Assembly: GCA_028280515.1 (NCBI GenBank)
Contig: JANQLP010000170.1
Span: 1-40,982, forward strand
From: Hyphomicrobiales bacterium
Lineage (GTDB): Bacteria > Pseudomonadota > Alphaproteobacteria > Rhizobiales > Methyloligellaceae
Reading direction: 5' to 3'
Length of the DNA: 40,982 bases
Positions 302 to 15,241 of the stretch are shown here, piece after piece. The notes under the pieces were generated by a model. That model worked only from the letters and a program-made list of their open reading frames with translations, did no database searches and was not told where the DNA came from. The translations under genes were made by a program, and so were the position numbers. The first letter of the stretch is position 1, and each line of letters begins with the position of its first letter.

Positions 302-3300
302 CTAAAATCGGACAGTGAGTCCGCCGGTCACACTGTGATCATCGTTCGATGAAGAGAAACGGCTATCGTAGCGGACATGCGTCGTGACATTATCGGATAC
401 TTCCAGTGCCGCCCCCAGACCGATCGCCACGCGGTCACGTGCCTGAGCGGCGGAGGTTGCCTGGAAACTGGCAAGGGCAACGGGTATCTCGGATTCCGTC
501 GACACGGAAGTGTCGCCGAACACATGCTCCCATGTCACCCGCGCATCGACAGCCAGCCGCCGTGCATCGAAAGTGCGGTCTGCCCCGAAAGCGATACCCA
601 GTCCGGTTACAGTCTGACTGGCATCGCTGTCGGAAACAGTGAGATTGAGAATACCGGCGCCGGTTTCCGTGAAACCATCCTGTCTGACGCGGCCGGCATC
701 TATTGTCGCAAGCGGACCGAAGCGCCATCCCTCAACCGGCGCAAAGCCTGACCAGCGCACGGCGTCGAGAAAGGCCTCCGCCGAAGCGGCCAATGCATAT
801 CCCGTCGTTTCACCGGCGGCCGTCGCAACTCCGACCGAACGCAGATAATCGTATTCCTGAAAAGCGGCCGTGATTGCTGCTGCCACCGTCAGCGGCCCGG
901 AGACGGTGGCGCCATAAACGCCCGCATGCCAACTCGTGGTGTCGGCATCCGAACCGCCGCTGTTGACGTCACCGGACACGAAGCCTGCCGCCAGCCCGAT
1001 AATCCCCTTCGTGCGCGAACCTTCAAACCCGCGCTCCGCTCCCGCGACAAAACCACCATATTTGGAAGTCCAGCCGGGAACCGCCCCAGAACCATCAACA
1101 TCCACCCGACCGCCAAGGGCGCTGCCCCAGCCCACCCACTGCGCCGATGGCAGCGCGGTACTTGTCCCGTCATCAACGATAGCAATGTACGATGGCCCGG
1201 TAGCCGTCGATGGCGCATATCCAAGACTGAGATCGCCCAGAGGACCCGCCGAGGTGATGCCGCCGGCTGAAACGCCCCCACGGCGGCGCAGTGTTGCTGA
1301 AAAATCCAAACCGGTATCGAGCGCCGCCGCCGTCGCGGCAGGATGAATGTCCTTCGGCGAAAGGTCGGATGCCGCCCTGTGGTAGAACAGCTGCACATTG
1401 TCGGTGTTGTAGATGGCTTTGAAGTCAATGTCGGGCAGATTGTCGGTGACCGCCGCGAACTGACCTGTCACGCCACCGTCTGCCGTCAGGACGGTGTATG
1501 TCACGGTATCCGGAAACGTGCCTGCAAGGGCCACAATATCCAGCGTTGTACCGGCAGCCGATATGATCGCCTGGCCCGTTGCAGCAAGACGATCAGAGTT
1601 GCCCAGGGCATCAACTTCCACCTGGAAAGTGGAGCCCGCGTTGAAACGCACGTCGCCGGACGCGTCGAGTGTGCCAAACGAATTGCCGGGAGCGATCGTT
1701 CCAAAGGCGTCTATTGCGCCAACCGTACCCGATCCGCCAAGCACTCCGCCCTGCAGGAGCGTCACTGCGCCGATCCCGCCGTTAACGATCAGCCGGCCGG
1801 CCTGTATGGTCGTGCCGCCGGAATAGGTGTTGGTGCCCGTGAGAATCAACGTGCCCGCACCGGTCTTGGTCACGCCAAAGCCGCCTCCCGTCTCGCCGAT
1901 CACGCCGGACTGGGTGGCACTTTCACCGTCTCGAACCTCAAGATCGACGTTGGCCTGAAGATCAATCGGGTTCGTTTCGTCGACGGCGTCGGCATAACTG
2001 ATCGTGGAGCCCAGTACGGTCAGTGTTCCGCTGCCTGTGGCGCCGCTGGCACCGATGCGCAACGTGCCTCCGTTTATCGTTGTGCCGCCGCTGTAGTCGT
2101 TGCCACCATTGGTGAGTTCGAGCGTCCCCGAGCCCTGCTTGTCGACCACGCCGCCGCCCGTGATGAGGTTGTCGACCGCAAACGTGTCGCTGCGATTGAA
2201 AGTCAACACGCCGTTGTTGACGACATTGCCCGTGCCGAGCGTGCCCGTCGTGCCACCGGCGCCGATCTGCAACGTGCCGGCATTGATCGTCGTGGTGCCG
2301 CTGTAGCTGTTGTCGCCGCTCAGAATCAGCGTTCCCGCCGTATCCTTGACAAGGGCGACCTCGGCCGTCGGTGACGGCCCATCGTCTATGTCGCCGCTGA
2401 ACGCACCCTGGTGGACCGTGAGTGTGAACAGCGATCCGAAAAGACCGCCGCCGCCGCGAATCCGCCCGCCGCCCTGCAGATTGCCAATTGTCTCCGCGGT
2501 GCTGAATTCAGCATCGAGCTGACCGTTGACAATGACGGTCACGCCGTTTGCAATCTGATTGTTGTTTAGAAGGGAGACCTCACCGCCGGCGTCGATCGTC
2601 AAGTCGCCCGCGATTGCCGTGACATCGTTGGCCTTCTGCAGCCGGAGATCAACGCCCTCTCCGACCGTGGTCAGCCCGGTGTAGGTATTGGCGAAACTGT
2701 CGAATTGGCCGTAGACGACCTCCGCGCCATTGTCGTCGGTGACGAATGTGATGCCAGTCCCGGGTTCGCCGACAATGGCATTACCGAAGATCAGACTATT
2801 GCCGAATATGCCGCCAGTTTCCCTGGTTACGGCAACCGTTCGGCTGGTGCTGCCGAGGTCGACCTGCCCCACAAATTGCACTGATGTTGAGGAGCCCAGG
2901 ATATCGACTGCGAAGTCGTTATTAACCTGGACGTCGTTGTCCAAAGTCAGACTGAACACGGTCGGGAGACCCGGGAGCGGGCCTGCATTTCCCAGCGTGC
3001 CGCCGTTTATGATCAGCGTGCCGGTACCGAACGGGCTGTTGGGCGAAAAGCTCAACGCGCGCAGAGTGCCTGAAGTGAGGGTGGTATCGCCGGTATAGTT
3101 TGCTTCTCGTACTGCAAGCGTTAACGTGCCGGTGCCGTTTTGGACGATGCCGCCGGTGCCACTTAGCTCAGCACCAAAGCCAAAGCCAAAAATCGTTTGA
3201 TCGGCGCCGGAATTGTTGAAGATGCCACCTGACAAACTGAAGGTGTCAGTGATTTCGATCTCATAACTTGTGGCGCCATTGAAGACCAGTCCATCAACTG

Positions 3301-3577
3301 AGCCGCCGAGAGCCTGCACCGACGTGTTGGCAGCGCCGACATCATTGAAGATCGCATTATCGCCTGTACCCGGAGGGCCGCCGCCTGGGGCCCAGTTTGT
3401 TGCCGTGCCGAAAGAAGTCCCGTTGCCGTTCCATGTGAAGTCGGCGGCGTGCGCCGAACCGGCCAGACCCAAACCGGCTGCGAGCAGAAAAGCGAGAGAC
3501 CAATTAAGGAAAACCGTTCCGCACAAAAACGCACGCGCGATATGCACGCGAGAGTAGTATCCAACCGACAACTTCAA
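302..3577 (-). CDS. Autotransporter with beta-strand passenger repeats (type Va secretion)
   Basis: A 1091-residue protein with a hydrophobic N-terminal signal segment (about residues 13-44, ending SAHA). A long low-complexity passenger (about 45-800) is rich in Gly, Thr, Asn and Val. At least five passenger units resemble NTYSGGTTIQAGRL or NDYSGGTTINGGTLRIG, the autotransporter-associated beta-strand repeat. The last ~270 residues form the translocator barrel and end in VRF with a terminal Phe, as outer-membrane barrels do. It should be secreted through its own barrel and displayed at the surface, perhaps in adhesion, but the ligand is unknown. The start is uncertain: the longest frame uses TTG at 3577 with a GGGGAG almost touching it, and an in-frame GTG at 3547 would still keep a signal peptide. 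The upstream 200 bases are AT-rich and probably hold the promoter. It is a single-gene unit convergent with aapJ. Confidence 0.9.
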   Translation of the reverse strand: MKLSVGYYSRVHIARAFLCGTVFLNWSLAFLLAAGLGLAGSAHAADFTWNGNGTSFGTATNWAPGGGPPGTGDNAIFNDVGAANTSVQALGGSVDGLVFNGATSYEIEITDTFSLSGGIFNNSGADQTIFGFGFGAELSGTGGIVQNGTGTLTLAVREANYTGDTTLTSGTLRALSFSPNSPFGTGTLIINGGTLGNAGPLPGLPTVFSLTLDNDVQVNNDFAVDILGSSTSVQFVGQVDLGSTSRTVAVTRETGGIFGNSLIFGNAIVGEPGTGITFVTDDNGAEVVYGQFDSFANTYTGLTTVGEGVDLRLQKANDVTAIAGDLTIDAGGEVSLLNNNQIANGVTVIVNGQLDAEFSTAETIGNLQGGGRIRGGGGLFGSLFTLTVHQGAFSGDIDDGPSPTAEVALVKDTAGTLILSGDNSYSGTTTINAGTLQIGAGGTTGTLGTGNVVNNGVLTFNRSDTFAVDNLITGGGVVDKQGSGTLELTNGGNDYSGGTTINGGTLRIGASGATGSGTLTVLGSTISYADAVDETNPIDLQANVDLEVRDGESATQSGVIGETGGGFGVTKTGAGTLILTGTNTYSGGTTIQAGRLIVNGGIGAVTLLQGGVLGGSGTVGAIDAFGTIAPGNSFGTLDASGDVRFNAGSTFQVEVDALGNSDRLAATGQAIISAAGTTLDIVALAGTFPDTVTYTVLTADGGVTGQFAAVTDNLPDIDFKAIYNTDNVQLFYHRAASDLSPKDIHPAATAAALDTGLDFSATLRRRGGVSAGGITSAGPLGDLSLGYAPSTATGPSYIAIVDDGTSTALPSAQWVGWGSALGGRVDVDGSGAVPGWTSKYGGFVAGAERGFEGSRTKGIIGLAAGFVSGDVNSGGSDADTTSWHAGVYGATVSGPLTVAAAITAAFQEYDYLRSVGVATAAGETTGYALAASAEAFLDAVRWSGFAPVEGWRFGPLATIDAGRVRQDGFTETGAGILNLTVSDSDASQTVTGLGIAFGADRTFDARRLAVDARVTWEHVFGDTSVSTESEIPVALASFQATSAAQARDRVAIGLGAALEVSDNVTTHVRYDSRFSSSNDDHSVTGGLTVRF

Positions 3578-3775
3578 CTCCCCGCAACCGCTTTTACTTA
3601 TTAAGACTTAAATTGCATGTATCGGAGAATTGGTGTCAAACAAAACCGGCTTTATATCCAAATATTTCTGATCGCCAGTGACAGGACTTGATTTGAGTGC
3701 CCAAGAGCGTTCGAATCTGTCCCGTCCGACCGCCTTCAGCGATAAGAAATCACTTGCCGGAGTTCCCCCATTCCT

Positions 3776-3859
3776 AGAGCAAAATCCGATTAGGTTGATT
3801 CACCCTGTTTCAACCTGATCGGATAAATTTGCTCTATATCTTCAAGTGTTAGAGCATCT
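3776..3859 (-). repeat. Dispersed palindromic intergenic repeat, copy 1
   Basis: About 84 bp that match, on the opposite strand, the block at 40900-40982 with only about four substitutions. It contains a long hairpin, whose arms are ATCCGATcAGGTTGA and TCAACCTAATCGGAT around an AACAGGGTGAA loop, inside outer GAGCAAA/TTTTGCTC arms. A short AT-rich link (CACTTGAAGATATA) joins this to a GATGCTCTA edge. Read on the minus strand it begins immediately at the stop codon of the HEAT-repeat gene, so it lies in that gene's 3' untranslated region. It resembles the families of mosaic palindromic repeats found between genes in rhizobia. It may act as a terminator or mRNA-stabilising structure, which is inference. 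Confidence 0.85.
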
Positions 3860-6209
3860 AGGCGCCGACGGCGTGCAGTGGCCTGACCGCGTTGAGCTCT
3901 CCGAGCACCTCGATGGCGATACGCCGGTCGACTGCGTTTTCGGACGACTGCAGCCGCGCGATGACCTCGGCGTTGGCCGCATCCGGATCGGTGTCGCGCA
4001 AATACCGCGCGGCCACCAGCCGGTCGGTTCCGCCGTGGCCGAACGCCAGTTCGATCAGCGCGTCGCGGGCACCGGCGCCATGACGCTCCACCAGGGCCTT
4101 GCCGGCGCACTGCCTGACCGTCATGTCATCGTCCTGGAGATAAGACTCGATCTGGAAGTCCGGATCGAGGCGGGATAGTCCCAGAATCGCTTCCGCACGC
4201 ACGGTCGACTCCTCATCGTCCACGCGCGCGCGCAATGCCTCGACAAGTACCGGACTGCGCGCGGCACTCGCCGCGCGGGTCAGCCAGAGCCGCAGCGTCG
4301 GTGAACGGTCGGCGAGGTGGCGCGCTAGCGCACGTCCGGCCTCCTCGCTCAGGATCTCCGGCGTCTCAAGCAAATCGGCAAGCGAGACGCCGGCCGCGAA
4401 CCGCAATTCCTCATTGCTCTCTTCCAGAACCGAAACGAGGCTGTCGACGACGTCCGGACGTTTCAGATCCGCCAGAACGCGCGCCGCCAGAACGCGCACG
4501 TCCGTGTGCGCCGGCGCACGCTGCTCCGGAGACAAGACGCGTTTGCCTTGCCGCCCCTGGGCGAGCTCCAGAAAGCTCAGATCTTCCGAGGTGAGTTTGA
4601 TCTCGCCGCTGGCAGCCTCGTCCGTCGGGCTCGCGAAACCATCCTGCAGCGAATCCAGGGTCGATATGGGAAAGGCGTCTTCCGGTTCCGCGATGTCCTC
4701 TGCGCCCGGTTCATCTGCCGTCTCGGGCGCGTTCTCAACCGTATCGGGCTCGGGGCGCTCCTCGATGATATTGCCCTCGCGATCGATGCGAATGCGATTG
4801 ACCTGATCGGCCCTGTCTTCCTTGGCCGCGTGCCGGCCATGCCGTTCCGCGGGTCTGTCCTCATCCTCTTCGGCGGCCGCGTCCGCCTTGTCGGTTTCCG
4901 CCTCGTCCGGGGGTGTATCAAGAGAACCGGAAAGCGCCGCCAGAAGGACGTCACCCGCCTTGCGCCGATCCTCGTCCTCGCCGTCCGCGGCGATCCGCGC
5001 GATACCGCCGATCGCCTCGAGGCGTATCGGGCGCACGGGATCGCGGGCAACCTCGATCAGAGTCTCGACGGCCGTGCCGGGGCTCACCTTCGCCAGTCCG
5101 GAGACCGCCGCCCTGCGGATTTCACCGGCCGCGCCCCGGCGCAGGGCCGCGCGGCGCAATGGCTCGACGCTTGCTTTGGCATCGATCATCGGCAGCAGCT
5201 CGGCAGACGCGCAGGCGAGCTTGGGTGTCCCCTTGTCCAGCCAGTCGAGCAGCAGGTTCGTGACATCGTCGACCGCCGGCGGTTCGGACAGGCCCGCGAA
5301 GGCTCCGAGCACCGCAATCCGGACGGCTTCGCTCTCATCGTCCAGAAAGGTGCGCAGCCGCGCGGGCTGCAGCCGCACCAGACGCGCCGCCGCTTCCGAC
5401 CGGACCGTCTCATCGGCATCGTCCAGGCAGTCCACCAGCCGGGGGTCGCCTGCCTGCAACGCCGCCAGCGCGATCAGCCGAACCGACGCATCCGCGTCGG
5501 CCAGGAGTTCATCCAACAGACCCGACAACCGGTCCGGCGCGCATTGGCGCAAGGCATCGACTGCGATCTTCCGCGCCCGCGCCGTGCCCGACCGCAGATA
5601 GTCCAACACGATCTCAAGGCCCGCATCGCCCATCTGCGCAAGAGCTACGAGCCCGGGGCGCAACAGGTCCTGTCCGAATTCGTCCTCCATTGCGGCGCGA
5701 ATGTCATCGGCCGCCTCGCTCGCGCCAAGTTGACCCAACGCCTCGACGGCAGCCAGCTGAACTTCGAGCCAGTCGTCGGACTCCGACTGGGCGATATCCT
5801 CATCGTCCCATGCGATTTCGTCCTCGGCCATGCCGCCGACGAGCAGCCGAAGGACCGGCACGGCCGCCTCTGCGCGGAAATGCGCGACCGCCCTGGCATA
5901 GGCGATCTTCGCATCCACGCACGGGTCCTGGGCTATGTTCTCGATGATGGTCGGGACGGCGTCCTCAATCGACAGTGCCATGATGGCGGTCGCCGCATCG
6001 ACGCGCACGTCCTCATCGGGATCGCGCAGCGCCGCAATCAGGACGTCTGCGGCGGAGGCATCGCCAATGCGCCCGAGGGCCTGTGCCGCAAGGCACTGCT
6101 CAAGATCGTTGCCGGAGGTCACAATCCTTGCCAGCGCGGCCGCAGCTTCATTTCGGCTCGCCATGCGCTCCGCCTCAAACTCAACCCGTGAAACGTTCGT
6201 GCCATTCAT
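3858..6209 (-). CDS. HEAT-repeat protein, last gene of the iodate-reductase-like operon
   Basis: A 783-residue protein without signal peptide or membrane segment, hence cytoplasmic. Residues 1 to about 400 and about 560 to 783 consist of alpha-helical HEAT/PBS-lyase-type repeats (for example AAQALGRIGDASAADVLIAA and LRDPDEDVRVDAATAI). Between them, at about 400-560, lies an acidic, probably disordered linker rich in Glu, Asp and Ala. No catalytic motif is visible. It lies 145 bp downstream of the molybdopterin subunit on the same strand, so it is probably co-transcribed. A scaffold or chaperone role in cofactor insertion or Tat-export checking of the oxidoreductase would fit, but this is inference from position only. 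The ATG at 6209 has a weak AGG ahead of it. The in-frame ATG at 6164, preceded by GGCGGAG, is a real alternative. The stop codon TAG overlaps the start of the palindromic repeat. Confidence 0.85.
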   Translation of the reverse strand: MNGTNVSRVEFEAERMASRNEAAAALARIVTSGNDLEQCLAAQALGRIGDASAADVLIAALRDPDEDVRVDAATAIMALSIEDAVPTIIENIAQDPCVDAKIAYARAVAHFRAEAAVPVLRLLVGGMAEDEIAWDDEDIAQSESDDWLEVQLAAVEALGQLGASEAADDIRAAMEDEFGQDLLRPGLVALAQMGDAGLEIVLDYLRSGTARARKIAVDALRQCAPDRLSGLLDELLADADASVRLIALAALQAGDPRLVDCLDDADETVRSEAAARLVRLQPARLRTFLDDESEAVRIAVLGAFAGLSEPPAVDDVTNLLLDWLDKGTPKLACASAELLPMIDAKASVEPLRRAALRRGAAGEIRRAAVSGLAKVSPGTAVETLIEVARDPVRPIRLEAIGGIARIAADGEDEDRRKAGDVLLAALSGSLDTPPDEAETDKADAAAEEDEDRPAERHGRHAAKEDRADQVNRIRIDREGNIIEERPEPDTVENAPETADEPGAEDIAEPEDAFPISTLDSLQDGFASPTDEAASGEIKLTSEDLSFLELAQGRQGKRVLSPEQRAPAHTDVRVLAARVLADLKRPDVVDSLVSVLEESNEELRFAAGVSLADLLETPEILSEEAGRALARHLADRSPTLRLWLTRAASAARSPVLVEALRARVDDEESTVRAEAILGLSRLDPDFQIESYLQDDDMTVRQCAGKALVERHGAGARDALIELAFGHGGTDRLVAARYLRDTDPDAANAEVIARLQSSENAVDRRIAIEVLGELNAVRPLHAVGA

Positions 6210-6275
6210 TGCCTAATGCGCCACTCCACGCAACATATCGAAAGGGAAACTGTCGGACGTCACCTTGCCGGCAAG

Positions 6276-6300
6276 CCTGCGCGCCCGTGGGGCGCGCAGG
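6276..6300 (-). other. Perfect 11-bp stem-loop between idrA and the HEAT-repeat gene
   Basis: CCTGCGCGCCC, a GTG loop (CAC on the coding strand), then GGGCGCGCAGG: a very stable hairpin in the 145-bp spacer. No U-run follows on the minus strand, so it is not a classical intrinsic terminator. It could attenuate read-through into the HEAT gene or protect the 3' end of the upstream message. Confidence 0.5.
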
Positions 6301-6354
6301 AGACATGCGGTGAGGCCGCAGTGTGAAACCGGACCGGTTTTGACGGCGCAACGA

Positions 6355-9027
6355 TCAAGCAATGTCGCGCCGGACGAAGCTCATCGACCTGAAGTCCTTC
6401 TTGTAAGGCGACACGCCGATCTTCTTCACCATGCCGACGCCCATCTTGTAGTTGTAGTTGCCGCTGATCCAGTCGACCACGCGGCCCGACAGGGCGTTCG
6501 CCGGTTGCGCCGTGTGGAGGAAGTCCATATAGGCGACCCCCTTCTTGACCGCCGGTGTGACGATCGCCACCGCCGTGATCGCGGCACGGGTCAGCCGGAT
6601 ATGGCCGTTCTCCAGCAATTTGGTGAACTGGAAGTCGTCGCCTTCCACGCCAACGATTGTGTCGACCTGCTCCGGAATGCGGTCGGAGAAGAGCATGACG
6701 TAGTCGCCCGACTCGATCCCGCGTGCTTTCGCGTCGTCGGGATGCAACTCGACCCAGTTTTCCGGCCAGCGCTGGACGATGTAGGGCCGGCGCCGGTCGT
6801 CATATCCGGACTGCCAACGCTCGTTGATCCGGCCGGACGTGCACCAGAGTTCGCCCTCGCGCGGCTTGAGCCACTCCCAATAATCGGAGAACAGGGACCA
6901 GGGCGCTTTCTGGATGTTGCACTTGCCCGTCTGCGACTTGAACCGCGTCAGGTTCTTGGAGAAGGTGTTGGCCCCGGACGGACCTTCCGCCGGCAAACTC
7001 GCGGTCGTGTCATGCAGCCGCTTCCAGCCGGTCAGCGAACCGTCATCCTGCATGAAGACGGGCCCCTGAATGCCGTTGGTGCCGAACTCCGCGAACTTCT
7101 CGTGCAACGTCTTGCCTTCGCGCTTTGCCGCGACCTTGACCATGAAGAAGTCCTTGCGGCTGCCACGCGAGCGGCGGGCGGCTTCCTCCAGGACCTCGTT
7201 GGAGTCCTTCCAGTCGAAACCGTCAAAGCCCATGCGCTTGCCGAGTTCGGCCATGATCCACCAGTCCGGCTTGGCCTCGCCCGGTGCATCGTAGAACTTC
7301 GGATAGAGCCGGAGCCGGCGTTCGCCGTTGGCACGGGTGAACGTATCCTCGCCCCAGCCGGCGGCCGGGAAGACAATGTCGGCAAAACGCGCGCCGATCG
7401 GATCCACCAGATAGATGTCCTGGTTTATGACCACCATCCCGCCGGAGTCGGCCCGCTTCTTGAGCGTATCGATGATGTCGTCCTTGTTGAACGACATGAT
7501 CTGGTGCGGGTTCTGCACGGTCAGTTCGTTGAACCGCCGTGAGAGCCCCTGGCTACCGCACATGGACTGGATCCAGGTGTTACCGATGACGTGAGCGAGC
7601 CGGGTATGGCCCGAGATCAGGTAACGGTCCGTGTCCATTGCGCGGCGGCGACGGCCAGGGAGCTTCTCAGGCGACTTGTTGCGCGGGTATTTGCCGCCAC
7701 GCAGACCGCCGCGCTGATGGCCCCCGGCGCGACCGATCATCTGACCGGGACGCCCGCCCGCGCCGCACACGATCCCCAGAGCGGAAATCGCCTGGGTATT
7801 GCCGGTGTTGTTCGACCAGTAGAACCCTTTCTCGATCATGATCGAGGTTTTCGGGCGCTTGCCGCCCTTGGGTTTCCCCATCCATTCCGCGGCCGTGTAG
7901 ATCTTCTGCACGTCGATGTCGGCGATCCTGGCGGCCTCTTCCGGCTTGGCGTAATCCTGGGCCAGGAGCCACTTCTTCCAGTCGTCAAAGCCCTTGGTCT
8001 GGAATTTGCCCCAGGTCGTGCGCCATTGCCACGGGGTGTTGCGCGTGCCCTGGCCGAAGCCGGAGGACGAGCCCCACTTGTCGTTGACCCACTTCTTGAT
8101 CCATTCCTTGTCTTCCCACCCGTTCTCGACGATGACCCGGGCAATCGCCAGAACCACCGGCAGATCAGTGCCGGGCTGGATGTCGATCCACAGGCCGCCG
8201 TTCTTCTCGGCATAGGCAACGCCGGCAGTCCGGCGCGGTACCAGGAAGATCGCCTTCTGCCCGTCCTGGATGCCGGGCATGATCCAGTCGGTAAAGAGGA
8301 TCGTCTTCGTCTCATACGGATCGGTGCCGCAAATCAGCAGCGTTTCCGCGTCCCGCCAGTCTTCGTAGGCCGCACCGAAATTGTCGAACCCGGCATCACG
8401 GAAGCCCGGCGTCGACGTCACGTCGGACGGCGTATCGTGGAAGGTGAAATTGGCGGTGTTGATGTGCCGCAGGGCAAACTTGGAGATCGCGTAGGTGTTC
8501 TCCATGTATCCGTACGAGAACGTCTTCATGCCATAGGCATTGGTTCCGTGCACGTCGACCACGTGCTTGATCGTCTCGGCGGCGATATCGAGCGCAAAAT
8601 CCCAGGGAACCGGCATGAGCACGCCGAACATGCGCACATGCGGGGACTTGAGACGGTCACGCGTCGGCGTCTGCGGGTTGTACACCTTCTGGGCGATCGC
8701 ACCGCCGCGAATCGAAGAATTGCCTTTCGGATTGACGAACTCGGCATCCTTGTCGGGCATGATGATGACGTGATGCGGTTCGTTGTTGTGAAGCACGATG
8801 TTGTACTGGTTCGGCGCCACCCAGGGACCGAGCGGATCGACCGGGAAATCGACGCCGAATGCGTTCTCGGACGCTTTCGGCCCGCCGATCTTTCCGCCCC
8901 GGACCGGCCAGCGGTAGACCTTGTAGCCGCAGGCAACGATGCAATAGTCGCAGGCGGTTGAAATCACGTCCGCGTCCTTCGGCGGAAGCGGCACATTGGT
9001 TCGCGGAATGTAATACGGCGTGGCCAT
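6355..9027 (-). CDS. idrA: Iodate reductase-type molybdopterin oxidoreductase, large subunit (AioA/IdrA family)
   Basis: An 890-residue member of the DMSO reductase superfamily binding bis-MGD molybdenum and a [3Fe-4S] cluster. The N-terminus shows Cys26-x2-Cys29-x3-Cys33 and then Ser104, 70 residues on, in place of a fourth Cys. This C-x2-C-x3-C-x70-S pattern is typical of arsenite oxidase and iodate reductase large subunits. In arsenite oxidases a conserved NRPAYNSE motif precedes the active-site His. Here the co-linear stretch, flanked by the same His and Arg-Asp, reads DTPSDVTS and the His position is Pro, arguing against arsenite oxidation. Its neighbours, a Rieske subunit and two di-haem peroxidases, are the idrABP1P2 set known from iodate-respiring bacteria. 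It has no signal peptide and is presumably exported bound to the Tat-targeted IdrB. The ATG is preceded by GGAGAGGG. The expected reaction is periplasmic iodate reduction, and the exact substrate remains inference. Confidence 0.87.
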   Translation of the reverse strand: MATPYYIPRTNVPLPPKDADVISTACDYCIVACGYKVYRWPVRGGKIGGPKASENAFGVDFPVDPLGPWVAPNQYNIVLHNNEPHHVIIMPDKDAEFVNPKGNSSIRGGAIAQKVYNPQTPTRDRLKSPHVRMFGVLMPVPWDFALDIAAETIKHVVDVHGTNAYGMKTFSYGYMENTYAISKFALRHINTANFTFHDTPSDVTSTPGFRDAGFDNFGAAYEDWRDAETLLICGTDPYETKTILFTDWIMPGIQDGQKAIFLVPRRTAGVAYAEKNGGLWIDIQPGTDLPVVLAIARVIVENGWEDKEWIKKWVNDKWGSSSGFGQGTRNTPWQWRTTWGKFQTKGFDDWKKWLLAQDYAKPEEAARIADIDVQKIYTAAEWMGKPKGGKRPKTSIMIEKGFYWSNNTGNTQAISALGIVCGAGGRPGQMIGRAGGHQRGGLRGGKYPRNKSPEKLPGRRRRAMDTDRYLISGHTRLAHVIGNTWIQSMCGSQGLSRRFNELTVQNPHQIMSFNKDDIIDTLKKRADSGGMVVINQDIYLVDPIGARFADIVFPAAGWGEDTFTRANGERRLRLYPKFYDAPGEAKPDWWIMAELGKRMGFDGFDWKDSNEVLEEAARRSRGSRKDFFMVKVAAKREGKTLHEKFAEFGTNGIQGPVFMQDDGSLTGWKRLHDTTASLPAEGPSGANTFSKNLTRFKSQTGKCNIQKAPWSLFSDYWEWLKPREGELWCTSGRINERWQSGYDDRRRPYIVQRWPENWVELHPDDAKARGIESGDYVMLFSDRIPEQVDTIVGVEGDDFQFTKLLENGHIRLTRAAITAVAIVTPAVKKGVAYMDFLHTAQPANALSGRVVDWISGNYNYKMGVGMVKKIGVSPYKKDFRSMSFVRRDIA

Positions 9028-9038
9028 GATGCCCTCTC

Positions 9039-9626
9039 CTATGCCTGCAGATTGTCGAAACGGCCGTAAATCAGGCCGAACATGCCCACGGCGTAGATAT
9101 TGTCACCGTCAAGCTCGAGCAGCACCTGCGGCAGGCTCTGATAGGCCTGCCCGGAAATGAAGATGCCGTACCGGGTCAGATCGAAGGTGGTGAGATGCAG
9201 CGGGCAGGGCCCGAGCGCCTTGTCGGCCGCCTGGTAGGTGCCCTGCAGCGGGCCGCCCTGATGCGTACAGGTGTAGTTGAAGGCCACCACATCCTTCTCC
9301 GGGCCGATGCCGCCTCCGGCTTCAGTTCCGAGCTTGATGAGGATCGATTCCGAATAGGTTTCCTCGTCGGGGTAGCTGAAGTCGACGGGTTCATCGACCT
9401 TAAGCTCCGACAGCTTGCCGATCAGCTTGCGCGGATATGTGGACACAACCGCCGGCACGCCCAATGCCGGGCCGCCCTTCAAAGCCACCATTATGGTGAA
9501 AGTGGCTATGCCCGAGGTGAGCAGGAAATCGCGCCGGTTCATCAGGCACGATGCCCCGTGTCCCTGCCCGGTGCCGTTCTTCGGCGTCGGCGTCTCGGCT
9601 GTAGACCTTGGTTCCGTTGTCGTCAT
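9039..9626 (-). CDS. idrB: Rieske [2Fe-2S] small subunit of the iodate reductase-like enzyme
   Basis: A 195-residue protein with an N-terminal Tat signal: NRRDFLLT at residues 30-37 followed by a hydrophobic stretch (about 38-58). The Rieske ligands are visible as Cys120-Thr-His122 and Cys141-Pro-Leu-His144. The two extra cysteines that form a disulfide in bc1-type Rieske proteins are absent: after CTH comes QGGP, and after the second ligand pair LTTFD. This occurs in some AioB proteins and should lower the redox potential. It would be the electron-transfer subunit passing electrons between a periplasmic carrier and the Mo subunit, and the export signal carrier for both. I chose ATG 9626, preceded by GGGAG, rather than the longer open frame that overlaps the upstream gene. 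The stop TAG lies 11 bp before idrA. Confidence 0.87.
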   Translation of the reverse strand: MTTTEPRSTAETPTPKNGTGQGHGASCLMNRRDFLLTSGIATFTIMVALKGGPALGVPAVVSTYPRKLIGKLSELKVDEPVDFSYPDEETYSESILIKLGTEAGGGIGPEKDVVAFNYTCTHQGGPLQGTYQAADKALGPCPLHLTTFDLTRYGIFISGQAYQSLPQVLLELDGDNIYAVGMFGLIYGRFDNLQA

Positions 9627-9639
9627 GATTGAGGTCTCC

Positions 9640-10788
9640 CTAGTTGCTCGCCGGCGCGGGCAGCGGTGCATACTCCGGCAGCTCGGGTTCTTCGATGGTG
9701 ATCCTCGGACCGCTCAGCGAATCCAGGAATGCGAGCAGGTCTGCCTTCTCTTTCTTGGTGAGCTTCAGCGGCTTGAGCAGCTTGGTCTTGGTGGCCGCCC
9801 AGTCGTTGGTGCCGCCGCCCTTGTTGTAGAACTCGACCACGTCCTCAAGCGTCGCGATCATGCCGTTGTGCATATACGGCGCGGTATATTTGGTATAGCG
9901 CAGGCTCGGCACCCGGAATTTCCCGAGATCAGCGTCCTGCTTGGTGCGGAAATAGAGACCCGGATCGTCCTTCCACTTGCGGTACTTCTCCTGGGTCACG
10001 CCTTTTGCGTAGAGCTCGAAACGGAAGGTGATTTGCGCCAGCGCATCCGTTTCCCAGCCGTCATAGGGCGGCACGCCGGTGTTGTAGTACTTCTCGTTGC
10101 TCAGCAGCGCGCCATTGTGACACTCGGCGCATCCCGCCTTGCCGGTGAAGAGCTTCAGCCCACGCTTCTGGGCCGCGTCGAGGGCGTTGTCGTCACCGCG
10201 CATATATTTGTCGAACGGGGTGTCCGTCTGCACCAGCGTCCGCTGGAAGGCGGCCATGGCCATGTACGCGTTGCGAATGCGCGGCCACCGGTCGCCGAAC
10301 ACCTCGCGGAAACGCTTTCGGTATTCCGGCACGAAGGCGAGCCGGGCCTCCATCATGTCGTCTTCGCCGTTCCCGGCGACACCGCCACGCGCCGCCGAGC
10401 GCGCCTGACCCTCGAGCGACTTCGACGCACCGGCCCAGAACAGCTTGCCGTAATAGGCGCTGTTCACGACCGTCTGGCTGTTGCGCCAGTGGGTGGTGCC
10501 GGGATAGCCGAGCGAGATCTTGTCGGGAAAATCCCATCCCGCGTCCGGAAGGTGGCACGCCGAGCACGGCATGGCCCCGTTGCCGGAAAGGCGCGGATCG
10601 AAGAACAACATCTTTCCAAGTTCGATCTTCGCCGGCGTGCCTTTATTGTCGGCAGGTTCCGACGGTTTTTCCAGAGCCGCCAGTGACTTCGGTCGATCGC
10701 TCGGCTTTGAACCGGCACTCTGGGAAACGACGCCCACGGCCGCAAGAGCCAGCACCAGGGCGGCGGGAATGAGAATTTTGCGCTCCAT
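9640..10788 (-). CDS. Di-haem cytochrome c peroxidase family protein of the idr operon (IdrP-type, second in order)
   Basis: A 382-residue secreted protein with an N-terminal hydrophobic signal (about residues 5-23). It has two c-type haem motifs, CSACH at 75-79 and CAECH at 220-224. The conserved YTAPYMHNGM...TLEDVVEFYNKGGG block near the C-terminus is typical of bacterial di-haem peroxidases and MauG relatives. Iodate reductase operons carry two such proteins, IdrP1 and IdrP2, thought to remove hydrogen peroxide or reactive iodine intermediates in the periplasm. I do not assign P1 or P2 because I cannot align them. It starts at ATG 10788, 12 bp after the stop of the first peroxidase, with GGGGAG upstream. 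An in-frame GTG at 10791 is less likely. It ends 13 bp before idrB, so tight co-transcription is expected. Confidence 0.85.
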   Translation of the reverse strand: MERKILIPAALVLALAAVGVVSQSAGSKPSDRPKSLAALEKPSEPADNKGTPAKIELGKMLFFDPRLSGNGAMPCSACHLPDAGWDFPDKISLGYPGTTHWRNSQTVVNSAYYGKLFWAGASKSLEGQARSAARGGVAGNGEDDMMEARLAFVPEYRKRFREVFGDRWPRIRNAYMAMAAFQRTLVQTDTPFDKYMRGDDNALDAAQKRGLKLFTGKAGCAECHNGALLSNEKYYNTGVPPYDGWETDALAQITFRFELYAKGVTQEKYRKWKDDPGLYFRTKQDADLGKFRVPSLRYTKYTAPYMHNGMIATLEDVVEFYNKGGGTNDWAATKTKLLKPLKLTKKEKADLLAFLDSLSGPRITIEEPELPEYAPLPAPASN

Positions 10789-10800
10789 CACTTGGCTCCC

Positions 10801-11922
10801 CTAGTTCTTGGTTTTGCGCCAGTTCTTGATCACCGGATATTCGGTGTCGATTTCCTCTCGCCAGACATATTTGTCATCGTCGAAGCTCTTGCCCGACAGC
10901 GACTTGAGGAACTCGACCAGATCCTTCTTCTCGCTGGCAATCAGATTGAGCGGCTTCAGCCGGCTGTCCTTGTTCGGATCGTCGCCGCCACCGCGGTTGT
11001 AGAACTCGACCACCTCCTCAAGCGTCGCGAACACGCCGTTGTGCATGTACGGCGCGGTGTAGGTGAGCTCACGAAGGGTGGGAGTCATGAACGACCGCTC
11101 GGTACCGCCGCGGCGGGTGCGGATGTAGGCACCGAGATCGCGCCGCACATTCATGTAGTTCTCAACGCCCTGGAACTTGGCGAAGGTGACGAACGTGATG
11201 TGCCGCAGCGGATCGGCCCAGATGTCCGGATTGTCCGGCACGCCGATATTGTGGGGCTTGTCGTCGGTGAAGCGGTTGCCGGAATGGCACGCCGCACAGT
11301 TTGCCTTGCCCTTGAACAGCCCCCAGCCGCGCTTGGCCGAGGCGGACATCTTGCCGGTGTCGAACGGAGCGTCCGAGGAGGTGATGGTCTTCAGGAAATT
11401 CTGGATCGCCTTGCGCGCGCCGCCGTTGGACGGCTCCCCGAGGCCGGCGGCCTCGAACATCTTGACATAGACCGGGTCCTGCTTGAGCCGCTCCTGCATG
11501 ATGCGCATGTCCATGTTCATCATGTAGGTCTCTGTGATCATCTCGCGGGTGACGTCGTTCAGGTTCGTTCCCACGCGCCCGTCATGGAACCAGGCCGCAC
11601 GATGACCCACATTGGCAAGGGTCGGCGTGTTACGGAAATGCTTGGCACCGGAATAGGCGTCCGACAGCGCGTTGCCGTCGGTGAAGGCCTTTTCCGGCAG
11701 ATGGCAGGACGAGCAGGAAAGTGTCGTGTCGCCGGAGAGGCGGACATCGTAGAACAGCCGCTTGCCGAGATCGGCAAGCTCCGGCTTGACTTCGATCGGC
11801 TTGACGGCGCCGACCTCCTGGGCGTTCGCAGCAGGCGAGAATTGCGCCATAACGGACAACGAAATGGCAGCTATCGCCAAACGCAGTGTTCCTGGCTGCC
11901 AGCGAAACTGTCTTTGCACCAT
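10801..11922 (-). CDS. Di-haem cytochrome c peroxidase family protein of the idr operon (IdrP-type, first in order)
   Basis: A 373-residue periplasmic protein. The signal peptide covers about residues 10-35 (ending AANA). Haem motifs are CSSCH at 70-74 and CAACH at 209-213. The C-terminal part again carries YTAPYMHNGVFATLEEVVEFYNRGGG-like family features. It is paralogous to the next gene. I chose ATG 11922 because GGGAGGG lies eight bases upstream and because it places the signal peptide at the N-terminus. The longer open frame to 12069 adds 49 residues lacking such features and crosses the presumed promoter. It is the first gene of the operon that runs through the second peroxidase, idrB and idrA to the HEAT-repeat gene. 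The 204 bp upstream hold the candidate operator described separately. Confidence 0.85.
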   Translation of the reverse strand: MVQRQFRWQPGTLRLAIAAISLSVMAQFSPAANAQEVGAVKPIEVKPELADLGKRLFYDVRLSGDTTLSCSSCHLPEKAFTDGNALSDAYSGAKHFRNTPTLANVGHRAAWFHDGRVGTNLNDVTREMITETYMMNMDMRIMQERLKQDPVYVKMFEAAGLGEPSNGGARKAIQNFLKTITSSDAPFDTGKMSASAKRGWGLFKGKANCAACHSGNRFTDDKPHNIGVPDNPDIWADPLRHITFVTFAKFQGVENYMNVRRDLGAYIRTRRGGTERSFMTPTLRELTYTAPYMHNGVFATLEEVVEFYNRGGGDDPNKDSRLKPLNLIASEKKDLVEFLKSLSGKSFDDDKYVWREEIDTEYPVIKNWRKTKN

Positions 11923-12041
11923 AGATTTCCCTCCCGACCGCTCTCTCGATGACCTCGGGCCACTTGCGGACAACGTCGCGTTCTCAGGCTCCGCAGGGAT
12001 GTGATTGCACATCCTGCATGAACCGAACCTATCGAAGCTCT

Positions 12042-12111
12042 GTAACGCCAGCATTTCCCGGGTACGCAAAGTTATGAAGATTTGTAACGAGATGTATCGG
12101 AGCCGTAACGA
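12042..12111 (-). promoter_or_regulatory. Cluster of GTAACGA-like direct repeats upstream of the idr operon
   Basis: On the plus strand GTAACGA occurs at 12084 and 12105 with GTATCGG between them at 12094, giving 10- and 11-bp spacing. Further copies are GTAACGC at 12042 and a shortened GTACGC at 12062, again about two helical turns apart. OmpR-type regulators bind direct repeats with this one-turn spacing. The cluster lies 120-190 bp before the first idr ORF and just past the stop of the sensor kinase gene. It is therefore a candidate binding site for the regulator at 14486-15241. This is pattern recognition only. Confidence 0.45.
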
Positions 12112-12126
12112 GCTCTTGCAGCCGGT

Positions 12127-14349
12127 CTATTCGGCCGCATCCTGGTGCTCTTGCGCATCCAGCATCGAACGGACGATCCGCGCCAGTTGGACCGGATCGA
12201 CCGGCTTGTCGAGCACGCGGATCGGGGCCAGTGCCTCCGGGTCGAGCGTCCCCGGCTGATAGGCCGTACAAATGATGATGGGGCAGGTTTCCCGCTGCGC
12301 GCGGATGGCACGCGCCAACTGCTCGCCGTTCATCTCCGGCATGACAAAATCCGTCATCACCAGGTCGAAGGCCTCCGGATTGGCCTCGAACGCCTCGACC
12401 GCGGCCAGGGGTTCGGTAAAGGCCTCGACCGTGTATCCGATCCGCTCAAGCAGCTTGCGGCAGGTGGCGACGACCTCCGGCTCGTCATCACACAGCAGGA
12501 TACGGTCGCTGCCACCTACGGCACGCTTCTGGCTGACGGGCGCCTGGGGGGCAAGATCGCATTCCGGCAACAGAATCTCAAAACATGTGCCTGACGGCGA
12601 ACTCTCGACGATGGCAATGCGCCCGCCCATTTCCCCCACCATGTTGGCAACAACGGACAGGCCGAGTCCCGTGCCACGTCCCGGCGGTTTGGTAGTGAAG
12701 AACGGCTCAAATACACGCGCGCGGTGTTCCTCGGAAATGCCGGAACCGGTGTCATCGACCAGCAGACGGACCTGCGCCTGTGCGCTTCCCGGTGGATGAT
12801 GGCGCGCGACGCGCAGACGAAGCGTGCCGGGCTCCGCCCCGATCGCCTCGGCCGCGTTGGAGCACAGGTTCATGATGACCTGATGCAGCCGCGTGGGATC
12901 GGCGAGCACGGTGAGGTTCTCGTCCTCGACGTCGACCTCTATCGACACATTTGTGGGGATGGACGCCTTCATCAGCCGGCAGACTTCCTCGACCGCGTCT
13001 GAAATCCGCAGCGGCACCGGATCTCCGGGCTGGCGCCGCGCGAAGGCAAGCACCTGCCCGACCAGGGAGCCCGCGCGTTTTGCGGCGATCTGGATCTGCT
13101 CGAGTTCCTCGCGAATGTGGCCGCGTTCGGGCGCGTCCATCAGCGCGAGATGGGCGTTGCCGACGATTGTCGTCAGGATGTTGTTGAAGTCATGCGCCAC
13201 GCCGCTCGCAAGCAGACCCACGGCCTCCATCTTCTGCGCCCGCTGGATTTGAGCCCGTGCGCGGCGGCGTTCGGTGATGTCCTCGCCGATACCGATGTAA
13301 TTCGTGATCTGCCCCTCTTCATCGCGCAAGGGCAGGATGATCGACTGCGCCCAGTAGAATCCGCCATCCTTCTTGCGGTTTCGGAAGATGCCGCGCCATT
13401 CGTCGCCGCGCGCAATCCGCTGGCTGAGGTCGCGATACGCTTCGGGAGGCGTTTCGTCCGATTGCAGAAAACGCGGCGTGCGCCCGATCACTTCGGACGG
13501 CTCGTAACCGGTCACCTCGCAGAACTTGCGGTTGACATATTCGATCAGACGGTCCGTGCCGGTTATCACGATCGTCGCCGGACTTTGCTCGACCGCACGA
13601 CCGAACTTCTTCGCCGCGTGCTCCGCGGCCTTGCGCTCGGCAAGCTCGCTGGACAGTCGCCCGACCGTCTGCCGCAACTCCGCCTGCAGGATGTAAAACA
13701 GGCCGTAGATCACAAGCGCCACCAGCATCAGCCCCGTCAAAAAGCGAAAGCCGGTCCCGACCAGTTCCTGCCCCTCTCTCACCGAGGCCGCAATCGCCTG
13801 CGTGGTGACGCGGCGCTTGTCACGCCAGGCGGCATCGATCGCTGCAAGGGCCTTGAGCGCGGCTCGGTCATCCACCTTGACGAGCCGATCCGTCTCCAGA
13901 GGCGTCCAGTTTTCCTCCGCGGCCCTGATCGCAATGGGGAGCTTCGAGTCATAGCGGGCCATGGTCTGCTCGACCGCCATGAGCGCCTCGATCTCCTCAG
14001 GCGATGGATTGTCCTGCCGGTACTCCGCGATTGCCTCCTTGAAGTCCTCCAGCTGCGCCCGGACCCGGTCCAGATATTCCGCATCCTGCCGCAGCACGTA
14101 GTTCTTGAAATTGTGAATGATGCCGCCATAGCCGATCAGGCCGCGAATGCGGCTCAGCAACTCACCGCGCCGGTCGGTCTCGGCCGCGTAGGTGCGCCAG
14201 CTCGCGTCGATGCTCTGGAACCGGTCGCGGGTCTCGATGCCGAGATAAAGGCCGGTGAGAACCGTCGCGGCCAGGAGGATGGCGGCGCCGATGCCGGCCA
14301 GCAACAGGCGCAGGGGCATCGCGCGGCCCGAGAGAAGTTGTGTGCTCAT
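12127..14349 (-). CDS. Membrane hybrid sensor histidine kinase (PAS, HisKA, HATPase, receiver)
   Basis: A 740-residue kinase. TM1 is at about 12-37 and TM2 at about 200-222, flanking a helical periplasmic region (about 38-199). Next come a PAS domain (about 245-357), then HisKA with phospho-acceptor His386 in ASGVAHDFNN. The HATPase domain has N, G1 and G2 boxes (NLCSNAAEA, DDTGSGI, GRGTGLGLS). A C-terminal receiver (about 615-735) carries Asp667 in MTDFVMPEMNG. The periplasmic section includes IHNFKNYVLR, a motif I associate with four-helix-bundle sensor domains. The signal is unknown; position suggests an iodine oxyanion or a redox condition. It lies immediately upstream of the idr operon on the same strand and divergent from the response regulator. 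The ATG is preceded by AGGAG. The C-terminal receiver implies either a phosphorelay, for which no Hpt protein is seen here, or self-regulation. Confidence 0.9.
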   Translation of the reverse strand: MSTQLLSGRAMPLRLLLAGIGAAILLAATVLTGLYLGIETRDRFQSIDASWRTYAAETDRRGELLSRIRGLIGYGGIIHNFKNYVLRQDAEYLDRVRAQLEDFKEAIAEYRQDNPSPEEIEALMAVEQTMARYDSKLPIAIRAAEENWTPLETDRLVKVDDRAALKALAAIDAAWRDKRRVTTQAIAASVREGQELVGTGFRFLTGLMLVALVIYGLFYILQAELRQTVGRLSSELAERKAAEHAAKKFGRAVEQSPATIVITGTDRLIEYVNRKFCEVTGYEPSEVIGRTPRFLQSDETPPEAYRDLSQRIARGDEWRGIFRNRKKDGGFYWAQSIILPLRDEEGQITNYIGIGEDITERRRARAQIQRAQKMEAVGLLASGVAHDFNNILTTIVGNAHLALMDAPERGHIREELEQIQIAAKRAGSLVGQVLAFARRQPGDPVPLRISDAVEEVCRLMKASIPTNVSIEVDVEDENLTVLADPTRLHQVIMNLCSNAAEAIGAEPGTLRLRVARHHPPGSAQAQVRLLVDDTGSGISEEHRARVFEPFFTTKPPGRGTGLGLSVVANMVGEMGGRIAIVESSPSGTCFEILLPECDLAPQAPVSQKRAVGGSDRILLCDDEPEVVATCRKLLERIGYTVEAFTEPLAAVEAFEANPEAFDLVMTDFVMPEMNGEQLARAIRAQRETCPIIICTAYQPGTLDPEALAPIRVLDKPVDPVQLARIVRSMLDAQEHQDAAE

Positions 14350-14392
14350 GCGCTCGGACTCCTTTGACTGTATAGTAAAAGCGCAAATGCCG

Positions 14393-14408
14393 GATGTTGA
14401 TCAACATC
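14393..14408. promoter_or_regulatory. 16-bp perfect palindrome in the kinase/regulator intergenic region
   Basis: GATGTTGA followed by TCAACATC, a perfect dyad in the 136-bp divergent gap between the kinase and the response regulator. It lies about 20 bp from a TATACA hexamer oriented toward the kinase. A second, looser inverted repeat (TGCCAGC at 14419, GCTGGCA at 14436) lies within the regulator's leader. A dimeric transcription factor site is plausible, but I cannot name the factor. Confidence 0.4.
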
Positions 14409-14485
14409 ATGGTGCAATTGCCAGCAGGCTGCTTGGCTGGCATGAAGTGCCCCCAAGGCGTTGCAACAAGGTATGAAGACACTTC

Positions 14486-15241
14486 ATGAGCGACCGCATT
14501 CTGATTGTCGATGACGATCAACAGATCACGTCATTTCTGGCCCGCTATCTCGAAAAGCAGGGCTACGAAGTGCTGTGCGCGGCGACCGGCAAGGAGACCC
14601 GCGCAACGTTGGAGCAGAACCGCATCGATCTGTGCGTGCTCGATATCGGCCTGCCGGACATCGACGGATTCCAGCTGATGCGCGAAATCCGTCAGACCTC
14701 GAACCTGCCCATTGTCGTGCTGTCCGTGCGCGACGAGACCTTTGACCGCATCTTTGGCCTCGAGTTCGGCGCCGACGATTATGTCTGCAAGCCGTTCGAA
14801 CCGCGCGAGCTGGTAGCCCGCATCCGCGCCGTTCTGCGGCGCGCGAAGGTCGAGCAACTGGCGCGCCAGCAGGTCAAGCCGGGGCAGACGTTGCTGCAGT
14901 TCGGGACATGGATTCTCAATACCGGTGCACGCACGCTCGTTCATGCAGATTCGGCGGAAGACGCCAGGTTGACGACATCGGAGTTTGAAATCCTGAGAGC
15001 GTTCGTCGAACAGCCGCGTACGGTGCTGTCGCGCGAGCAACTGCTCGACCTCGTGCGCGGGCCGTCGATCTATGTCGGCGACCGGACAATCGACGTCCAT
15101 ATCATGCGGCTGCGCAAGAAGATCGAACCCGATCCATCCGATCCGACGCTGATCAAGACCGTCCACGGCATCGGTTACTGCCTCGCCGAAGATGTGATCC
15201 GCTTCGAAAAGCCGAGTGAAACCGACGCCATGTCGGGTTGA
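14486..15241 (+). CDS. OmpR-family response regulator
   Basis: A 251-residue protein. The N-terminal receiver has the acidic triad Asp9-Asp10-Asp11, phospho-acceptor Asp53 in CVLDIGLPD, and a conserved Lys in CKPFEP. The C-terminal winged helix (about 145-235) has the family ending DVHIMRLRKKIE...IKTVHGIGYCL. It is most likely the partner of the divergent hybrid kinase. Such regulators bind tandem direct repeats, which makes the GTAACGA cluster before the idr operon a natural target. No strong Shine-Dalgarno sequence precedes the ATG (only GAAG), so translation may be weak. No terminator is evident downstream. Target genes are inferred from proximity alone. Confidence 0.9.
   Translation: MSDRILIVDDDQQITSFLARYLEKQGYEVLCAATGKETRATLEQNRIDLCVLDIGLPDIDGFQLMREIRQTSNLPIVVLSVRDETFDRIFGLEFGADDYVCKPFEPRELVARIRAVLRRAKVEQLARQQVKPGQTLLQFGTWILNTGARTLVHADSAEDARLTTSEFEILRAFVEQPRTVLSREQLLDLVRGPSIYVGDRTIDVHIMRLRKKIEPDPSDPTLIKTVHGIGYCLAEDVIRFEKPSETDAMSG

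Follow-up and report, generated by a model that had tools for sequence, protein, structure and literature searches.

The locus at positions 6355–11922 of the window (the whole stretch of 40,982 nucleotides that was analysed, from a Hyphomicrobiales bacterium) raises the question of whether its genes encode an iodate reductase or an arsenite oxidase. As claimed in the first-pass annotation, four contiguous genes were found on the minus strand. The genes idrP2 (10801–11922) and idrP1 (9640–10788) each encode a di-haem peroxidase-like protein with a PF03150 match and two CxxCH motifs, and idrB (9039–9626) encodes a Rieske [2Fe-2S] subunit of 195 aa with the Tat motif RRDFL. The fourth gene, idrA (6355–9027), encodes the molybdopterin and [3Fe-4S] catalytic subunit (890 aa, 100.1 kDa), in which no leader peptide was seen; matches to PF00384, PF18465 and PF01568 agree with its description as AioA-like. 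Family matches reach E-values down to 4.5e-124, and relatives keep these four genes in an unchanged order; the four-gene observation thus exceeds chance. Among the named loci with enough flank, idrB adjoins idrA in 78 of 78 cases, and the corresponding counts are 73 of 73 for idrP1 and 69 of 69 for idrP2. The unit is larger than the four genes: downstream it includes a gene for a HEAT-repeat protein, and upstream a two-component pair. Judged from the sequence, we consider it very probable that the locus represents an idrP2-P1-B-A iodate-reductase operon of a marine lineage, with the HEAT gene after it and the two-component pair before it.

The published Idr motifs are matched exactly, with CX2CX3CX70S starting at C26 of IdrA (noted as exact already in the first pass), CXHX18CX2H and the Tat motif in IdrB and two CX2CH motifs in each peroxidase. 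The same motif set is listed for Azoarcus DN11 in the available part of PMC10149662. Gene content, gene order and motifs are shared with the IdrABP1P2 systems of Pseudomonas sp. SCT, Denitromonas IR-12, Azoarcus DN11 and alphaproteobacteria such as Roseovarius azorensis, in which the Tat signal is likewise found on IdrB only; the window differs from these in having the HEAT gene after idrA. IdrP1 has a hydrophobic stretch at residues 2–27, and IdrP2 has none above the threshold, its N-terminus appearing leader-like by eye. Both MoaA and TatC are encoded by the host genome. The order P2-P1-B-A had been taken as unusual, but it is in fact the described order (PMC10989891, PMC8801600). The excerpts at hand give idrP2, P1, B, A for Pseudomonas SCT, Denitromonas IR-12 and Ca. 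M. iodofontis (PMC10989891) and state that the peroxidase genes "always" stand ahead of idrAB (PMC8801600). The operon is thus a new copy of an already known kind, known from many marine bacteria. A chlorite-dismutase step in the host was rejected, as no PF06778 match was found in the host genome; the Denitromonas genome is likewise without chlorite dismutase. IdrP1 and IdrP2 would clear peroxide or other oxidants arising on the way.

One alternative reading is an arsenite oxidase AioBA that gained two peroxidase genes. The NCBIfam models give both subunits arsenite-oxidase-type names above cut-off (TIGR02693, "arsenate reductase (azurin) large subunit", 415.2 bits against 359.05; TIGR02694, 121.5 against 95.65), as had been predicted for annotation pipelines, and an Azonexus relative carries such an annotation. 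The best solved-structure relatives of IdrA are also arsenite oxidases, and AioBA (e.g. of Pseudorhizobium NT-26) shares with the window the superfamily branch, the cofactors and the Rieske partner. However, in the large-subunit tree, which the first pass had proposed as a check, the IdrA of the window falls with Idr-type genes and outside the arsenite oxidases. The 28 Idr rows form one clade with support of 100/99 (100/100 with L017 added), separate from the 11 AioA rows, although the rows include no experimentally tested IdrA; the nearest link to the tested relatives is at the genus level, through an Aliiroseovarius MAG (L071) that is 80% identical. Identity to the AioA rows is just 27–30%, and none of the 11 AioA genes has peroxidase genes beside it. 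The claim that the active site is altered stood in part: DTPSDVTS does replace NRPAYNSE, but the Pro at the "active-site His" position is not diagnostic, since this position varies among the arsenite oxidases themselves (8 of the 11 rows have H, two have W and one has P). We take His195, Glu203, Arg419 and His423 to be the arsenite-binding residues of arsenite oxidase; three of these four are kept in IdrA, which would suit AioBA, and the sole change is Glu to Ser205. This change argues against AioBA, the position being Glu in 11 of 11 AioA rows and Ser both in the window and throughout the 87 alpha-lineage rows. Based on the tree placement, the Glu to Ser change and the lack of peroxidase genes adjacent to AioA genes, arsenite oxidase was rejected as the identity of the enzyme and is, in our judgement, highly improbable. 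The assignment to iodate reductase is well supported by the tree, the motifs, the synteny and the tested relatives.

An enzyme of the Idr type might still have another oxyanion, or a mixed set such as bromate and chlorate, as its main natural substrate, and reduce iodate incidentally. The Ser found at the equivalent of Glu203 could shift the substrate (Azonexus and the rest of the other Idr lineage carry Asp there), and incidental iodate reduction by other enzymes of the superfamily is described in the available text of PMC10746228. Against this, relatives that carry the cluster do reduce iodate, among them three marine alphaproteobacteria, and the R. azorensis idrA responds to 0.1 uM iodate (PMC11445184). 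As far as its available sections go, the same source found that the protein best covered in the active gel band of R. azorensis was one described as an IdrA homologue, and it detected no activity above 0.1 U/mg in crude extract. Others have shown in relatives iodate reduction, IdrA in an active gel band and induction by iodate and low oxygen, and also that idrA is needed in Denitromonas. We regard a main substrate other than iodate as unlikely.

A further alternative concerns the physiology of iodate reduction, which may serve as an electron sink or as protection at low oxygen, not for anaerobic growth. The tested marine alphaproteobacteria reduce iodate under oxygen shortage, and their authors, in the sections available, report no anaerobic growth on iodate (PMC11445184). 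FNR-type boxes, moreover, precede idrP2 in 21 of the 37 loci without a linked two-component pair (including L086, in which the kinase is in two pieces) compared to 0 of 30 others. Both the FNR-box pattern and the GTYAC pattern were picked after the sequences had been viewed, and their tests are therefore exploratory. On the other hand, members of other lineages are described as respiring iodate (excerpts of PMC8692401 and PMC10149662). We think that a role as electron sink or in protection is more likely than true respiration, and would favour it with some reserve; it is compatible with the iodate-reductase reading, from which it differs in physiology alone.

The two-component pair at 12127–15241 is likely to be the switch for the operon. 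It consists of a hybrid sensor kinase on the minus strand (12127–14349; periplasmic helical sensor, PAS, HisKA, HATPase and receiver domains) and a divergent OmpR-type response regulator on the plus strand (14486–15241; PF00072 and PF00486), and together these would turn the operon on. A sensor kinase precedes idrP2 in 27 of the 61 named loci with enough flank. DN11, by contrast, has an upstream AtoS/AtoC (sigma-54) pair, according to the part of PMC10149662 at hand, and an AtoS/AtoC pair is annotated in Azonexus. In the intergenic region before idrP2 (11923–12126, minus), GTTAC half-sites start at 12109, 12088 and 12046. The region is a candidate for binding of the regulator, although the half-sites lie 21 bp apart and fail the strict repeat rule. 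For the sensor part of the kinase, the Foldseek matches were for the most part ligand-binding domains of the helical-bundle kind, including chemoreceptor and NarQ types, with a best E-value of 0.016 and no match below 0.001.

The HEAT-repeat gene (3858–6209, minus) encodes a protein of 783 aa with a PF13646 match. All 75 named alphaproteobacterial loci with enough flank have this gene immediately downstream of idrA. Of the 199 genomes searched in the order, 15 contain strong matches to its family, as do 11 of the 385 searched in the class, and all of these genomes carry idrA. Chance cross-matches between repeat proteins were rejected based on the position after idrA and the gap in E-values, which runs from 2.8e-44 (the weakest first-ranked match in an idr genome) to 4.1e-18 (best other) in the order and, more narrowly, from 6.9e-23 (G680, match beside idrA) to 1.7e-17 in the class. 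The gene lies 13.5 kb from idrA in G827, has an in-frame TGA in G871 and is split in L030. It is lacking in eight Idr-side loci (L011, L012, L013, L016, L017, L117, L118 and L119), and Idr thus does not always need the HEAT protein. Beside idrP2 in the Vibrio locus L011, a HEAT-like gene scored 13.6 bits against the family, reached an hhalign probability of 27% and scored 24.8 bits against HEAT_2 (cut-off 27.7). The HEAT gene is apparently undescribed and travels with the idr set in the marine lineage.

Operons of the Aio/Idr enzyme family are described as having no chaperone gene. The HEAT protein may help to build the iodate-reducing enzyme, and we propose that it is a putative dedicated assembly chaperone for IdrAB. 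That it is specific to idr, represents a solenoid class of molybdoenzyme chaperone with no relation to TorD/NarJ and forms a fifth core component of the iodate-reduction unit in marine bacteria is a tentative reading, to which we give somewhat less than an even chance. The proposed role resembles that of the TorD/NarJ chaperones, which are all-helical cytoplasmic partners encoded beside the enzyme genes, but this is analogy, not membership: Pfam gave HEAT-type families only and no TorD/NarJ domain, the top 50 Foldseek matches were generic helical solenoids, and the model (pLDDT 85.2) is a two-armed solenoid of 783 residues. It is also possible, though less likely than not, that the protein is no chaperone and serves the operon as a regulator or as a partner in the stress response. 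Solenoids of the HEAT type are able to bind very different partners, the fold search gives no specific relative, many loci are without the gene, and the protein evolves fast (mean pairwise difference 0.70 compared to 0.20 for IdrA); its distances follow those of IdrA with r 0.69, compared to 0.87 for IdrB. A regulatory role agrees less well with the position directly after idrA and the co-occurrence with idrA, nor did we find a transmembrane segment or, with Pfam, a DNA-binding domain.

Iodide at the sea surface drives ozone loss and iodine emission, as described in the available text of PMC11445184, and it therefore matters to know which bacteria reduce iodate; pipelines name idr genes arsenite oxidase. 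How IdrAB is assembled, and how bacteria sense iodate and low oxygen, can be approached by testing the HEAT gene linked to idr and the two alternative modes of control.

The four genes of the idr operon are all on the minus strand at the positions given by the first-pass annotation: idrP2 (10801-11922) and idrP1 (9640-10788), which encode peroxidases with two CxxCH motifs each, idrB (9039-9626), which encodes a Rieske protein with a CXHX18CX2H motif and an RRDFL Tat motif, and idrA (6355-9027), which encodes a protein of 890 amino acids (100.1 kDa) with an exact CX2CX3CX70S motif. The same motif types are listed in the text of PMC10149662 for the Idr proteins of Azoarcus DN11. The peroxidase-peroxidase-B-A order, initially regarded as unusual, has already been described, namely as idrP2, P1, B, A in Pseudomonas SCT, Denitromonas IR-12 and Ca. 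Methylomirabilis iodofontis (PMC10989891), and the peroxidase genes are stated to always precede idrAB (PMC8801600). The best solved structural relatives were arsenite oxidases for IdrA, and a di-haem enzyme (6e1c) and cytochrome c peroxidases for IdrP1 and IdrP2. The predicted mislabelling by annotation pipelines was also observed: NCBIfam calls both enzyme subunits arsenate reductase (azurin), with scores above the cut-off.

Of four arsenite-binding residues of arsenite oxidase (His195, Glu203, Arg419 and His423), only Glu differs in the window IdrA (Ser205). In an alignment of 110 rows, from which 20 duplicates and short-contig copies had been left out beforehand, the Glu203-equivalent position is occupied by Glu in all 11 AioA rows and by Ser in all 87 IdrA rows of the alpha lineage. 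The eight Idr rows that are more distant have Asp (5), Ser (2) or Ala (1), and L017 (G038:C228) has Asp. A second proposed active-site replacement, His to Pro, did not hold, the position being His in only 8 of the 11 AioA rows.

In a maximum-likelihood tree of 43 rows, all from outside the experimentally tested IdrA sequences, the window IdrA groups with those of marine alphaproteobacteria. One clade (support 100/99) comprises the 28 Idr rows, and together with L017 these form a larger clade (100/100); 10 of the 11 AioA rows form a separate clade, and L114 fell outside both. L116, L114 and L017 were flagged by the tree program as having long branches. Two Idr lineages were seen, one with the window and the other with Azonexus, Thiothrix and others (IdrA about 49-52% identical to the window's). 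L017, sister to the Idr clade, has idrBA-like genes (5779-9184) without peroxidases or HEAT gene, and may connect Aio with Idr. When genome contigs were scanned (tblastn, E to 1e-3), at least 490 stretches proved to encode some relative; the best 80 of these, biased towards the window's own lineage, are the named loci. Among these 80, where the flank was long enough, idrB adjoined idrA in 78/78, and idrP1 and idrP2 were adjacent in 73/73 and 69/69. No peroxidase genes were found at the 11 AioA loci; for several of these the flank spans just some 2 kb. Of 398 genomes sampled from the phylum, six gave a match at E up to 1e-60, and five of these six reached Idr level. Taken by itself, the window operon is one more copy of an operon type that is known and widespread.

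According to the text of PMC11445184, iodate is reduced by three marine alphaproteobacteria that carry the idr cluster. The active band of R. azorensis contained 24 proteins, among which the IdrA homologue was the best covered, and the idr genes were up with iodate and in static culture. Since crude-extract activity of R. azorensis was below the authors' limit and the tested strains showed no anaerobic growth on iodate (PMC11445184), the term dissimilatory, used in the first-pass annotation, is a tentative label.

With 5.4 Mb in 253 contigs, the host assembly encodes MoaA, TatC and eight PF00384 matches; chlorite dismutase was not found in it. None of six same-family genomes searched had an idrA-level match, a distribution that agrees with the horizontal transfer already published (PMC8692401). 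Upstream of the operon in the window lie genes for an Sbt-type bicarbonate transporter (PF05982) and for a protein with DUF3179 (16903-17883 and 19985-21382).

Upstream of idrP2 lie a hybrid kinase gene (12127-14349, minus), its periplasmic part predicted to be all-helical, and a divergent gene for an OmpR-type regulator (14486-15241, plus). The kinase gene is found 5' of idrP2 in 27 of the 61 named loci with more than 5500 bases upstream (among the best 80 of at least 490), and also in two loci of the other Idr lineage, L016 and L119. A linked two-component system has already been suggested to sense iodate in other idr members (PMC8801600). GTTAC half-sites start at 12109, 12088 and 12046, within the 204 bases before idrP2. 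Of the loci compared (76 in all), 30 have the linked pair and 37 lack it: GTYAC repeats spaced 10-11 bp apart are present in 8 versus 1 of these, and FNR-type boxes (TGATN4ATCA) in 0 versus 21 (Fisher p 0.008 and 1e-7, respectively, neither corrected for kinship). Of the nine loci with too short a flank, none has GTYAC repeats and four have FNR-type boxes; the rates in shuffled sequences were 0.2-0.5% and 0.4-0.7%. Ruegeria accounts for 9 of the 27 named loci with the linked pair, and Pseudovibrio, Roseibium and Labrenzia make up 13 of the 20 named loci with FNR-type boxes. L028, L044, L036 and L050 are among the loci without the linked pair that have such palindromes 5' of idrP2. This apparent motif split is a lead, because the patterns were picked after the sequences had been seen.

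Directly after idrA, on the same minus strand, lies a gene for a 783-residue HEAT-repeat protein (3858-6209). Among the best 80 of at least 490 loci, it follows idrA directly wherever the flank exceeds 1200 bases (75 of 75); in the remaining five, its start is present in L037, L040 and L059 and was detected by profile in L049, and L076 ends 2 bases past the match. The order and class searches were not independent: G000 and a number of same-order genomes were included in both, and the named loci overlap with part of the searched genomes. In the order, 15 of 199 genomes had strong matches (E below 1e-40), the same 15 that have idrA at 56% identity or more; G086 (idrA 53%) and G038 (47%) had no strong match, and the best match in the other order genomes was 4.1e-18. 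Of 385 genomes of the class, 12 had Idr-level matches; HEAT family matches (E to 1e-20) were present in 11 of the 12 and in 0 of the 373 others. The lone exception is G623, whose idrA runs off the contig end. The gene lies 13.5 kb from idrA in G827, has a TGA inside the match in G871 and is split in L030. The family search did not find it in L011, L012, L013, L016, L017, L117, L118 or L119. In L011 (Vibrio sp. THAF190c), where a 1.7 Mb plasmid carries the idr unit, the gene beside idrP2 (3031-5064) is HEAT-like but divergent, with weak similarity to the family. Downstream of the HEAT gene in the window is an autotransporter-type gene (302-3577; PF03797, PATR repeats).

Across 29 HEAT sequences, each 25-36% identical to the window's, 15 columns are invariant. 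Pairwise distances of the HEAT protein correlate with those of IdrA at r 0.69, as compared to 0.87 for IdrB. The AlphaFold2 model (mean pLDDT 85.2) shows two helical arms connected by a linker (about 435-562) that is mostly disordered, and no transmembrane segment was predicted. A literature search of running text found no mention of an idr-linked HEAT gene, nor did the text of PMC11445184 and PMC10746228; "heat" in the iodate papers found referred to heat-killed controls and a reference title. Fig. 5 of PMC8692401 draws gene neighbourhoods and may include the gene. The main rival explanation of the HEAT protein is a regulatory role. From its linkage to idr, its lack of membrane segments and the place of its gene immediately behind idrA, we infer instead that the solenoid may be a dedicated assembly chaperone. 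PMC8692401 infers export together with IdrB for IdrA, which has no signal peptide, and the usual chaperone gene is missing from arsenite oxidase operons according to PMC10609526.
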